Below, one piece after another: positions 5,633 to 12,924 of a stretch of 38,688 bases of DNA (positions are counted from its first letter, which is position 1; each line of letters opens with the position of its first letter). Origin of the DNA: Bacteroidaceae bacterium (lineage in GTDB: Bacteria > Bacteroidota > Bacteroidia > Bacteroidales > Bacteroidaceae); NCBI GenBank assembly GCA_017938245.1, contig JAGBBX010000012.1:1-38688 (forward strand), given 5' to 3'. A program made the position numbers and the translations under genes. Under the pieces are notes generated by a model. That model ran no database searches, was not told the origin of the DNA, and saw only the letters and a list, made by a program, of their open reading frames with translations.

Positions 5633-6673
5633 TTATTTCTGTTCCTTAATAAGATATATAATCACAGGCAGGTGGTCGCTGTAACCATTGAGCCACACAC
5701 CACCGGCGTGAGTACGCTTAGGCGACCCTTTATATTTTCCCTCGGTCTGCAGCATATAACTGCGTGAGAATATCTCGGGCTTATAGTATTTGAGTGTCGA
5801 ACGGTCTTTACCTACAAGATTACCGCTGACTACAATCTGGTCGAACAGATTCCACTTTCCTTTATATTTAAGTGTTCCCAATCCGTTTTTACGCAATATA
5901 TTCCACCAAGGATTATAGAGGTCGGTACTTTTTTTAATCTGATTTTGCTCGCGCTTGGCACCCAAGCAGGTTTTCATACTCTTGTCATCAGGGTCGTCGT
6001 TCATATCGCCCATAATAATAACTTTTGAGTCGGGTTGCGCCGCCATAAGCGAGTCTTTCACAGCCTTTACAAGCACACCAGCCCTCTCGCGAGCGGGCGA
6101 CGATGCATATCGCGACGGCCAATGGTTTACGATAATATGTACTCGCTCACCGGCCATATCTCCGCTTACAGTAAGGAAACCGCGTGTTTTATATGTTGTA
6201 TCATTATCCTCGGTGGTATATGGCACCAATTTGCTTGTTACAGGCTTAAAAAGTTTGGGATTATAAAGCAAGGCACAATCGACACCGCGACGGTCGGGAC
6301 CTTCTATATGAACAATATCCCATCCACGAGCCGATAATATCGGATGTTTAACAAGGTCGTCGAGTACGCGGTAATTCTCAACTTCGGAAACGCCGACCGC
6401 AGCAAGTCCCATAGGTAACATATCGGTAGACATTTCGTTAAGCACCGTTGCCATATTCTTCTGTTTATTCACATAGCGCATTGTACCCCATTTGTTTGTC
6501 CCATCGGGCAAATACTCATAGTCATTCTTTCCTGCATCGTGAATTGTATCGAACAGATTCTCCAGGTTATAGAATCCCACGCTGTAGACCTCATACTTTT
6601 TCTGCGCCTCGGCATCCGTTGCACCAATAAAAGATAACACCGAAGCAACAACAAGAAACACAAATTTTCTCAT
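5633..6673 (-). CDS. Secreted endonuclease/exonuclease/phosphatase (EEP) family enzyme
   Basis: Metal-dependent phosphodiesterase of the DNase I / exonuclease III superfamily. Residues 1-23 are a signal peptide (LVVASVLSFIGATDAEA), so it acts in the periplasm or outside. Catalytic blocks are complete: YNLENLFD (N36, E38), VSEVEN (E97/E99), IVNHWPSR (N183, H184, W185), MGDMNDDPDD (D223, N225) and C-terminal YSDHLPV. The NHWPSR block resembles secreted nucleases more than lipid phosphatases. The length of 346 aa is that of a single EEP domain. It is transcribed divergently from the TonB receptor operon, 248 bp apart, and I infer a shared pathway in which it cleaves a substrate that the receptor imports. 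It could instead be a phosphatase or sphingomyelinase-like enzyme; the sequence alone does not decide. Confidence 0.85.
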   Translation of the reverse strand: MRKFVFLVVASVLSFIGATDAEAQKKYEVYSVGFYNLENLFDTIHDAGKNDYEYLPDGTNKWGTMRYVNKQKNMATVLNEMSTDMLPMGLAAVGVSEVENYRVLDDLVKHPILSARGWDIVHIEGPDRRGVDCALLYNPKLFKPVTSKLVPYTTEDNDTTYKTRGFLTVSGDMAGERVHIIVNHWPSRYASSPARERAGVLVKAVKDSLMAAQPDSKVIIMGDMNDDPDDKSMKTCLGAKREQNQIKKSTDLYNPWWNILRKNGLGTLKYKGKWNLFDQIVVSGNLVGKDRSTLKYYKPEIFSRSYMLQTEGKYKGSPKRTHAGGVWLNGYSDHLPVIIYLIKEQK

Positions 6674-6823
6674 ATACTTTTCTTAATTATCATTTTCTTT
6701 TTACCACACACCTATATGATTTGTAAAAATAATACTTTTTTAGAACAGCAACCGCATCGAATTCAAAAAAGTTATAAACAGAGTGCAATTTTGGGGGTTA
6801 CTATGTAAAAACACCATAATTCA

Positions 6824-6856
6824 TTTTGTCGTCTAAACAGATTTTCACTATCTTCG
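6824..6856 (+). promoter_or_regulatory. Promoter of the TonB receptor operon
   Basis: TTTTG (6824-6828), a 20-bp spacer and TATCTTCG (6849-6856) match the Bacteroides -33/-7 consensus with one change in -7. The start would be near 6863, leaving a leader of about 60 nt before the ATG at 6922. Confidence 0.6.
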
Positions 6857-10396: not shown

Positions 10397-10407
10397 AACA
10401 CAGCAAT

Positions 10408-12924
10408 ATGAAACTTTTCAAGAATTTTGCAATTATGGCATTGGCGGCATTTGCGTTTAATGCCTGCGAAGATGTTCCCGCCCCCTATACTCTCCCCGGA
10501 GAGAACACCGGCGGCAGTACCCTCCCCGAGGGCGTATACATCAGTGAGAGCTTTGCCAATAGTTTCGGCACATTCAGTACACAAGAGACCGAGGGCAACT
10601 ATCCCTGGGTAATCGACTACGGCACAGCAAAGGCAACCTCGTATGCCGACGGCGCCAACAACGCCGCACAGAGCTGGCTTGTATCGGAGCCCGTCGACTT
10701 TACCAATGAGACCGAGGCATACGTATCGTTCGACTACATCATACGTTATGCCGAGAGTGGCAAGGTAGCAGCCAACCATCAGCTGCTTGTCAGCACCGAC
10801 TACACAGGCGATGCAGCGACAGCCACCTGGACCGACCTCCCCTACAAGGCTGTAGAAGGCGCCGATTGGCAAACATTCTACAAGGCAAACGTATCGGTTC
10901 CTGCACAGTTTATTGGCAAAGCAAACGTAACATTCGCGCTTAAATACACAGCAAAGGCAAAAGCCGGCACCTGGGAGGTAAAGAACCTCGTTGTAGCACA
11001 CGGCAAGGCCGAAGGCAGCGCATCAGGAGAGGGCGAATACATAAATGAGACATTTGCCACCGACTTTGGAGCATTCACATTGGCACAGACAGTAGGTAAC
11101 TATCCTTGGATTATTGACTACAGCACCGCAAAGGCAACCTCGTATGTTGACGGTGTAAACAACGCCGCCGAGAGCTGGCTCATTTCACCCGCCGTCGACT
11201 TTGGCGAAGAGACCGAGGCATACGTAAAATTCGAGTATATCATCCGTTATGCCGAGAGCGGCAAGGTAGCAGCCAACCATCAGTTGCTCATCAGCAGCGA
11301 CTATGCAGGTGACCCGGCAACAGCCACCTGGACAGACGTTCCCTACAATGCCACCGAGGGCGTCGATTGGGTAACATTCGCCAAGGCACACGTAGCTGTT
11401 CCCGAGGCATTCTTAGGCAAGAGCAGCGTTACATTCGCACTGAAATACACAGCAAAAGAGAAAGCCGGAACCTGGGAAGTTAGAAACTTCATCGTTGCAC
11501 ACGGTGCAGTTGTAGAAGATGAGAAACCCGAGGTTAAGGAGTACACCGTCGACGAGGCAAAGGCAGCCTTTGTAGCCGGTGAGTCACTCCCCGCAATAGT
11601 AAAATGCTATATTGTAGGAACCATTAACGGACAGGTTTACAGCGACGGTTGCACCTTCAGTGCATCGGCAACAGCAAACACCAACCTGCTTATTGCAGCA
11701 TCGCCCGACGAGACCAACCCCGACAACTGTATGCCCGTTCAGCTCCCCAGCGGCGCAGTGCGCAGCGCGCTCAACCTTGTCGACAACCCCAAGAACTACA
11801 AGAGAGAGATTAAGCTCACAGGTAACATCGAAAAATATTTTGGTGTAGCAGGTCTCAAAGGTGTATCGGCATACGAATTTGTTGGTGATGCAACCGACGA
11901 ACCAGAGCTTCCCGAGGGTGTCAGCAGCATCAGCAGCGTAATTGCAGCCGGAGCAGGTGCAGCAACCGTTCAGGGTACAATAGTTGCTACCTACGCACGC
12001 GGATTCCTTGTTAACGACGGCACAGGCACCATCCTCGTATATCTTGGCGAGGATAAAGGATACAGCGAAGGCGACGTGGTAAAGGTGAGTGGCGAGACTA
12101 CACTCTATGCAGGACTTTTGCAGTTCCCCAACACTTCGACAATAGAGAAGGTTGGAACAGCAGCAGTGAACCACCCCTCTGTTAGCGAGATGAATGGTGC
12201 GGCAATGGATTCTTACCTCGAAAGTCCCTCGGTAAAATATATCCGCTACAGAGGAGTACTCACAATAGACGGTTACTACTATAATGTAGAGATTGACGGC
12301 GCCGAGACAGCAGTGGGCAGCATCTCATACCCCAAAGAGGGCCTCATCGACGCAAGCCTCAACGGTAAGGAGATTATCGTTACAGGCTATGCAATTGGTG
12401 TAAGCCGCAGCGAGTTTGTCAACACAATGGCTATAAGCGTCGAGGCAGCCGACGGCAGCACAACACCCGACGAGGGCGAAGGCGAGGAAGGCGAGGACAA
12501 TAATGACGATGCAAGCGGCGATGCTACCATATTCGACTTTACCAACCCCACAGCACTCACCCCTTCGGTGACACCTGCCGAGATTGAGGAGGGCGCCACA
12601 CAGGGTGCAGGCGTTGAGTTCAACGAGATAACATTCACCAACGGCAATGTCTCTATCAAAGTTGCACAGGGCGCGGCAGGTACTCCCGTAAGATTCTGGA
12701 CAAAGACCGATGGAACAGTTGAGCTTCGCACCTACAAGAACTCTAAGATAACCATCAGCACCACCGACGGCAATATGTCAAGCATTGTATTCGATGGTTA
12801 CAAGGTATCTACAATGTCCCCCTCGACAGGCAGTTTCGACAACGGCAGTTGGAGCGGCAACGCCAACAGCGTTACATTCGACGTGACAGCAACACTCAAC
12901 ATAAAGACCATTACAGTAAAGTAA
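10408..12924 (+). CDS. Multidomain lipoprotein: two choice-of-anchor-J-like repeats plus OB-fold domains
   Basis: 838 aa, lipobox FNAC with C20, so surface or periplasm facing lipoprotein. Domains: a tandem pair of ~160-aa units (about 44-204 and 211-371) that align with an offset of 167 residues and share YIIRYAESGKVAANHQLL exactly or nearly; both look like jelly-roll choice-of-anchor J domains. Then a DUF6359-like domain (about 378-500, YTVDEAKAAF, VKCYIVGTI), an OB-fold near 505-590 (VQGTIVATYARGFLVNDGTG), another OB-like part (600-680), an acidic linker (GEGEEGEDNNDD, about 690) and a C-terminal beta-sandwich. This is the last gene of the receptor operon, followed by a strong hairpin. I infer extracellular capture of a polymer near the receptor. 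No enzymatic motif is seen. Confidence 0.8.
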   Translation: MKLFKNFAIMALAAFAFNACEDVPAPYTLPGENTGGSTLPEGVYISESFANSFGTFSTQETEGNYPWVIDYGTAKATSYADGANNAAQSWLVSEPVDFTNETEAYVSFDYIIRYAESGKVAANHQLLVSTDYTGDAATATWTDLPYKAVEGADWQTFYKANVSVPAQFIGKANVTFALKYTAKAKAGTWEVKNLVVAHGKAEGSASGEGEYINETFATDFGAFTLAQTVGNYPWIIDYSTAKATSYVDGVNNAAESWLISPAVDFGEETEAYVKFEYIIRYAESGKVAANHQLLISSDYAGDPATATWTDVPYNATEGVDWVTFAKAHVAVPEAFLGKSSVTFALKYTAKEKAGTWEVRNFIVAHGAVVEDEKPEVKEYTVDEAKAAFVAGESLPAIVKCYIVGTINGQVYSDGCTFSASATANTNLLIAASPDETNPDNCMPVQLPSGAVRSALNLVDNPKNYKREIKLTGNIEKYFGVAGLKGVSAYEFVGDATDEPELPEGVSSISSVIAAGAGAATVQGTIVATYARGFLVNDGTGTILVYLGEDKGYSEGDVVKVSGETTLYAGLLQFPNTSTIEKVGTAAVNHPSVSEMNGAAMDSYLESPSVKYIRYRGVLTIDGYYYNVEIDGAETAVGSISYPKEGLIDASLNGKEIIVTGYAIGVSRSEFVNTMAISVEAADGSTTPDEGEGEEGEDNNDDASGDATIFDFTNPTALTPSVTPAEIEEGATQGAGVEFNEITFTNGNVSIKVAQGAAGTPVRFWTKTDGTVELRTYKNSKITISTTDGNMSSIVFDGYKVSTMSPSTGSFDNGSWSGNANSVTFDVTATLNIKTITVK

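Follow-up and report, generated by a model that had tools for sequence, protein, structure and literature searches.

What does a cell bring across its outer membrane when a secreted nuclease-like enzyme is encoded back to back with a TonB-dependent receptor and two lipoproteins? The question is raised by a locus of Bacteroidaceae bacterium GCA_017938245.1 on contig JAGBBX010000012.1, whose 38,688 nucleotides are the stretch analysed here (the window, i.e. the entire contig C60 of a 2.70 Mb assembly of 63 contigs that is 86% complete). Known Gram-negative DNA-uptake machines mostly work through a type IV pilus together with the secretin PilQ. For the passage of DNA through the outer membrane in Bacteroidota, a screen of 2021 gave an unexplained protein pair in Riemerella (PMC8459023; the papers cited by PMC number are represented here by excerpts). 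This pair can now be tied to a nuclease, an OB-like model and a receptor fold, with the same set in Prevotella-like gut bacteria, and we consider that the present locus probably encodes the outer-membrane part of a TonB-driven DNA-uptake system in its Bacteroidales form.

The four genes named in an earlier, sequence-only reading were all found where that reading had placed them, and its layout is confirmed: the EEP gene is divergent from a plus-strand set of receptor, lipoprotein 1 and lipoprotein 2, with a gap of 19 bases between the receptor and lipoprotein 1 genes on the same strand. The features of the locus are as follows.

5588–5630, no strand assigned: terminator-like hairpin separating the SOD and EEP genes, with a stem of 19 pairs (consensus scan)
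5633–6673, minus: secreted EEP phosphodiesterase/nuclease (predicted), PF19580, 346 residues (profile match, 43 invariant columns)
6826–6856, plus: Bacteroidota-type promoter-like site TTG-N20-TATCTTCG, 5' of the receptor gene (motif scan)
6922–9549, plus: TonB-dependent receptor, 875 residues, CarboxypepD_reg domain not found
9569–10396, plus: lipoprotein 1, DUF5689 (PF18942), tandem-OB-like model, 275 residues
10408–12924, plus: lipoprotein 2, 838 residues, with two anchor-J/DUF5017-like repeats, DUF6359 and further parts
10513–11004, plus: repeat 1 of lipoprotein 2 (71% identity to repeat 2 over 164 residues)
11014–11505, plus: repeat 2 of lipoprotein 2 (corresponds to the C-terminal domain that DUF5689 lipoproteins carry in other lineages, profile probability 99.4)
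11542–11880, plus: DUF6359 domain (PF19886) in lipoprotein 2 (profile match)
12943–12986, plus: terminator-like hairpin with a 20-pair stem after the receptor operon (consensus scan)

The enzyme, the receptor and the two lipoproteins

The EEP protein matches PF19580 over its full length (8.2e-107), is the sole PF19580 match found in the host genome, and is predicted to be a metal-dependent secreted nuclease or phosphodiesterase. An alignment of 19 sequences, that of the window included, has 43 invariant columns, among them N36, E38, E99, H184, D223, N225, D278, D333 and H334, which we take to be catalytic by analogy with ExoIII and APE1. Membership in the ExeM/NucH group was rejected (NF033681, 23.3 bits against a cut-off of 300). 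In ExeM a single chain combines an EEP domain with two putative OB folds (PMC6085458); the window also holds OB-type and EEP parts, but in separate proteins.

The receptor is modeled as a β-barrel with an N-terminal plug (residues 14–90 with pLDDT below 50), and its structural matches include BtuB1-BtuG1 of B. theta (8blw); sequence searches of the PDB with all four proteins gave no significant match. As in the SusCD and BtuB-BtuG systems, the window has a TonB receptor and a lipoprotein in one operon; its lipoprotein, however, is of the DUF5689/OB-like type. A SusD-family partner was not found, only DUF5689 and DUF6359 exceeding the Pfam cut-offs, so that SusCD membership was rejected and the earlier description of a receptor lacking SusD holds. 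The closest receptor relatives, among the matches listed, are Bacteroidaceae metagenome bins from animal guts, and the receptor of locus L101 is 72% identical to that of the window when the two are aligned, or 70% over the best segment found by tblastn. CarboxypepD_reg is present in 3 of the 40 members of alignment A4 and was therefore not taken as defining. In one receptor reading frame (L111:8521-11583) a TonB_C domain at residues 77–154 (3.8e-20) precedes a weak Plug match and seemingly replaces CarboxypepD_reg, although this first-start-codon call may be too early.

Lipoprotein 1, with its lipobox cysteine read by eye as C20, matches PF18942 across the full profile (1.5e-59) and is the sole DUF5689 match in the host genome. 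Its model resembles the tandem-OB DNA binders HIN-200 and RPA in Foldseek, with TM-scores of 0.19–0.35 on the query; the first half is an OB fold by both Foldseek and VIA-align, the second only via the Foldseek alignments to tandem-OB HIN-200/RPA chains (families not listed by VIA-align were not counted as evidence). Structure prediction thus upheld the proposal of OB-like lipoproteins for lipoprotein 1. The protein is acidic overall, yet has conserved lysine/arginine and aromatic residues in both halves. Residues 1–271 match NF052645, the NCBIfam model of the M949_1556 family lipoproteins (4.4e-29), but the C-terminal part of that family is missing and the score of 101.6 bits stays below the cut-off of 475.

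The two repeats of lipoprotein 2 have matches in 13 DUF5689-type proteins from other lineages; among the alignments listed, these cover the C-terminal parts, with subject starts between 75 and 491. In a profile comparison the repeat region aligns to the C-terminal portion of A2, the DUF5689 alignment (probability 99.4); the name anchor-J/DUF5017-like is taken by analogy from the annotation published for RA0C_RS04920. Therefore one fused chain in relatives corresponds to two lipoproteins here, which agrees with the earlier idea of split parts in that a domain fused to DUF5689 elsewhere sits in a separate protein. Both lipoproteins are presumably surface-exposed. DUF6359 has two more matches elsewhere in the host genome (C4, C10). 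The two OB-type domains of the operon, DUF5689 and DUF6359, each have a match in the B. subtilis control genome, and the matching protein is probably the secreted nuclease YhcR. If right, this match would independently support a nucleic-acid role.

Conservation of the gene set and the likely ligand

Named genomes were scanned with A1, an alignment of the receptor, which matched at least 591 stretches, 589 of them confirmed relatives. Of the at least 589 relatives, the 80 most similar to the window were kept, so that the set favours Prevotella-like genomes. In 77 of these 80 loci a gene just downstream of the receptor, and on its strand, encodes a DUF5689-type lipoprotein; L124 and L179 end at or soon after the receptor, and in L128 the domain is in the following reading frame, scored as lipoprotein 2. 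The EEP gene is divergent upstream of the receptor in 70 (65/72 by a stricter rule, among loci whose contig extends 2 kb or more upstream), including L102, L103 and L104, where a plus-strand open reading frame of 349 residues that the window does not have intervenes. The other ten comprise seven loci without EEP, two with EEP downstream on the plus strand and L137, scored as downstream with overlapping starts of reading frames. Isolates in the set include Paraprevotella clara, Hoylesella timonensis, Segatella albensis, S. baroniae and Prevotella micans. The receptor subfamily with its neighbours is present in Prevotella-like Bacteroidales, and the genes occur together in many genomes, the outcome that the sequence-only reading had proposed to look for.

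A second nuclease type accompanies many of these loci. Seven relatives were inspected, and in all five tested the next gene, of 285–345 residues, encodes a PF01223 Endonuclease_NS protein (1.9e-47 to 3.6e-36); a model built from these five finds such a gene, same-stranded and no more than 6 kb from the receptor, in 46/80 loci, or in 43 of the 62 loci whose contig continues for 6 kb or more downstream. In these relatives the gene probably shares the receptor operon. The window and its four nearest relatives (L101–L104) have no Endonuclease_NS gene downstream, the host genome holding a single copy on contig C40. Enzymes of the EndA/NucA type in this family belong to competence systems; the downstream gene of the relatives is of the same PF01223 type, and the copy in the host lies outside the operon. 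In the same-family genomes L064, L084 and L085, the EEP gene is co-oriented with the receptor genes and an Endonuclease_NS-type gene lies in the cluster.

The pairing was also followed in an even sample of the class that comprised 149 genomes, that of the window included. A window-type receptor scored above 550 bits in 28 (the next match scored 313), with DUF5689 within 500 bases in 26/28 and EEP within 5 kb in 21/28; these counts are not independent, model A1 having been built from 22 of the 28, mostly picked via their DUF5689 match. Among the six receptor genomes outside the training set, DUF5689 lies within 500 bases in four and EEP within 5 kb in three, one (G036) ending inside the receptor at a contig edge and another (G076) holding the genes apart. 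PF19580 has a match somewhere in 28/28 receptor genomes compared with 80/149 overall. The circularity of this sample leaves the 80 named loci and the link to Riemerella untouched. The control genome of Bacteroides ihuae matches DUF5689, PF19580 and Endonuclease_NS, as genome-wide presence only. In a more distant receptor group, pieces of about 76–160 bits have long reading frames with a weak DUF5689 match 0.1–2 kb away (G007, G019, G023, G047, G059, G062, G067, G103), which suggests that the pairing of receptor and DUF5689 is broader than the receptor subfamily of the window.

Nucleic acid is the likely ligand of the locus because of the gene co-occurrence, the tandem-OB-like model and the Endonuclease_NS gene downstream in so many relatives; this part of the earlier proposal, nucleic-acid capture, gains support. 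Capture of another phosphodiester, e.g. teichoic acid, a phospholipid head group or inositol phosphate, would fit a PI-PLC-X domain protein encoded beyond the operon on the minus strand (15078–16082), and lipid and inositol phosphatases are among the members of the EEP superfamily. It is nevertheless quite improbable, since Endonuclease_NS is a frequent downstream gene in relatives, the lipoprotein 1 model matches DNA binders and the PI-PLC gene lies outside the terminator-bounded unit.

The link to natural transformation in Riemerella

In R. anatipestifer, RA0C_RS04895 is ComEC, RS04915 a CarboxypepD-reg protein predicted in the outer membrane, and RS04920 a DUF5689+DUF5017 protein (PMC8459023, Huang et al. 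2021). When RA0C_RS04915 or RA0C_RS04920 was removed by markerless deletion, transformation fell below the limit of about 4.2e-10; in the authors' proposal, RS04920 binds the DNA, which may pass through RS04915 (PMC8459023). In the excerpts RS04910 is named once, as an upstream gene with unchanged transcription, and homologues of the four new proteins are described in one statement as widespread in Bacteroidetes, whereas another confines RS04915 homologues to Flavobacteriaceae (PMC8459023). Transformation was reduced in tonBA and tonBB mutants (PMC8383284), and in R. columbina it was inhibited by EDTA and restored by divalent cations (PMC7965970).

These tags can be related to the window through genome G021 and its family. 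Genome G021 scores 752.9 bits against NF052645, over the cut-off, and has EEP divergent from receptor and DUF5689 genes; in its family 144/148 genomes have an NF052645 match (E ≤0.001), 46 over the cut-off. Eighteen of the 144, mostly small genomes, were mapped in 20-kb regions, leaving out reading frames below 80 residues: receptor and DUF5689 are present in 18/18, an adjoining EEP gene in 17/18 and ComEC in 3/18 (L220, L225 and L226, all of genus g101), while ComEC was not seen in the mapped regions of the g101 genomes L219, L224 and L231. In L220 (G200, one contig of 2,164,087 bases) the order is ComEC (602 residues), a 146-residue protein, Carboxyl_trans (542 residues), EEP, receptor and DUF5689, followed by smaller genes and then Cas9. 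Its receptor carries CarboxypepD_reg and its DUF5689 protein a DUF5017 match below the cut-off; identities to the window are 34% for EEP (E 1e-62), 29% for DUF5689 (5e-20) and 26% for the receptor (2e-84; 874 columns), which belongs to the same subfamily. Locus tags step by five by convention, so that three genes should lie between RS04895 and RS04915, as in L220, whose gene order fits tags RS04895 to RS04920 with one gene per step. Judged from this order, the EEP gene is suggested to be RS04910 in Riemerella.

The window thus resembles the Riemerella pair in its adjacent receptor-type and DUF5689 genes, with EEP divergent in the tag-matching L220, and differs in lacking CarboxypepD_reg, in carrying the anchor-J/DUF5017-like domains on a second lipoprotein and in having ComEC on another contig. 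In the open PMC literature, DUF5689 and RA0C_RS04915 both occur only in PMC8459023, and no title or abstract start joins EEP or Endonuclease_NS to the DUF5689-receptor pair, these family names not having been used as search terms.

A role of the lipoproteins in surface adhesion, biofilm or antigenicity, with indirect effects on uptake, would accord with the anchor-J-like repeats of lipoprotein 2, and disruption of M949_1556 in R. anatipestifer CH3 is said to alter antigenicity and pathogenicity. Given the steady pairing with the receptor and with nucleases, and the effect of a markerless deletion on transformation (PMC8459023), we regard such a role as very improbable.

DNA import or nutrient scavenging

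In the mechanism that we favour, surface lipoprotein 1, aided by lipoprotein 2, would catch extracellular DNA and hand it to the receptor; TonB energy would move the receptor plug and draw the DNA into the periplasm, the secreted EEP protein (plus Endonuclease_NS in the 46 relatives) may trim or open it, and ComEC would then carry one strand through the inner membrane. We infer that DNA is the ligand and passes through the receptor, that EEP acts at this step and that the host is competent. ComEC and DprA genes are found elsewhere in the host genome, both being common (10/14 and 11/14 control genomes). A broader claim, that the dedicated TonB receptor is itself the outer-membrane DNA pore across Bacteroidia, fed by a tandem-OB lipoprotein and served by EEP with no secretin or type IV pilus, is proposed tentatively, at somewhat less than even odds.

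The same parts could serve nutrition, with surface nucleases cutting DNA or RNA, lipoproteins binding the fragments and the receptor importing oligonucleotides for phosphate, nitrogen or nucleosides. Two secreted-nuclease types in many relatives, the record titles, which assign many of the 80 loci to gut or rumen, and the small share of mapped regions with ComEC beside the locus are in keeping with this, and B. subtilis, with matches to DUF5689 and DUF6359, degrades extracellular DNA with the secreted nuclease YhcR (PMC11458576). Scavenging is still unlikely as the main purpose: no SusD is among the Pfam matches of the four proteins, and DNA import for transformation is better supported than feeding because loss of the Riemerella pair, which is essential there, abolishes transformation (PMC8459023). 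The SusCD-like feeding purpose of the sequence-only reading therefore loses ground, this being the sole experiment found on relatives. Both roles could be compatible.

Several observations weigh against DNA uptake. Lipoprotein 1 has a net charge of -9 and an isoelectric point of 4.95, unusual for a DNA binder, so that overall charge failed as support for DNA binding; the receptor has no CarboxypepD_reg in the Pfam search; and EEP is co-oriented instead of divergent in the three same-family genomes. PF19580 is not tied to the locus, being matched in 80/149 genomes and near the receptor in 21, and in 7/28 receptor genomes it is not within 5 kb. Two further proteins essential in Riemerella lack a clear counterpart in the host genome, 86% complete as assembled: DUF1343/NamZ has no match and HHH_3 exceeds its cut-off only in a Tex-like protein. 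RS04910, the presumed EEP gene, is not among the hit genes tabulated for 3,000 mutants, and F. johnsoniae has homologues yet was not competent under the conditions tested (PMC8459023); the authors put the tonBB effect down to iron and suggested nutrient transport for tonBA (PMC8383284). No experiment in any Bacteroidales was found in the open PMC literature. If DNA uptake is true, the locus would be a transformation entry port in gut, rumen and oral Prevotella-like bacteria, for which we found no competence reports, and natural competence in a dominant gut group becomes directly testable by experiment.

As for the signals flanking the genes, the window has 8 terminator-like hairpins against 8.3 in shuffles, so that stem length alone stands out. 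The promoter-like motif, a Bacteroidota-type consensus with one mismatch allowed, is present on one strand in 3.9% of 2000 shuffled intergenic sequences, and a sigma-70 scan, with a consensus ill-suited to the phylum, gave 21 sites in the window against 12.0 in shuffles. Elsewhere in the window, a tandem array with a period of 84 and 2.2 copies (13340–13527) occupies the gap ahead of an HlyIII-type gene, and four tRNA genes are clustered on the minus strand at 205–605 (two Gly-GCC, Leu-GAG and Leu-CAG).

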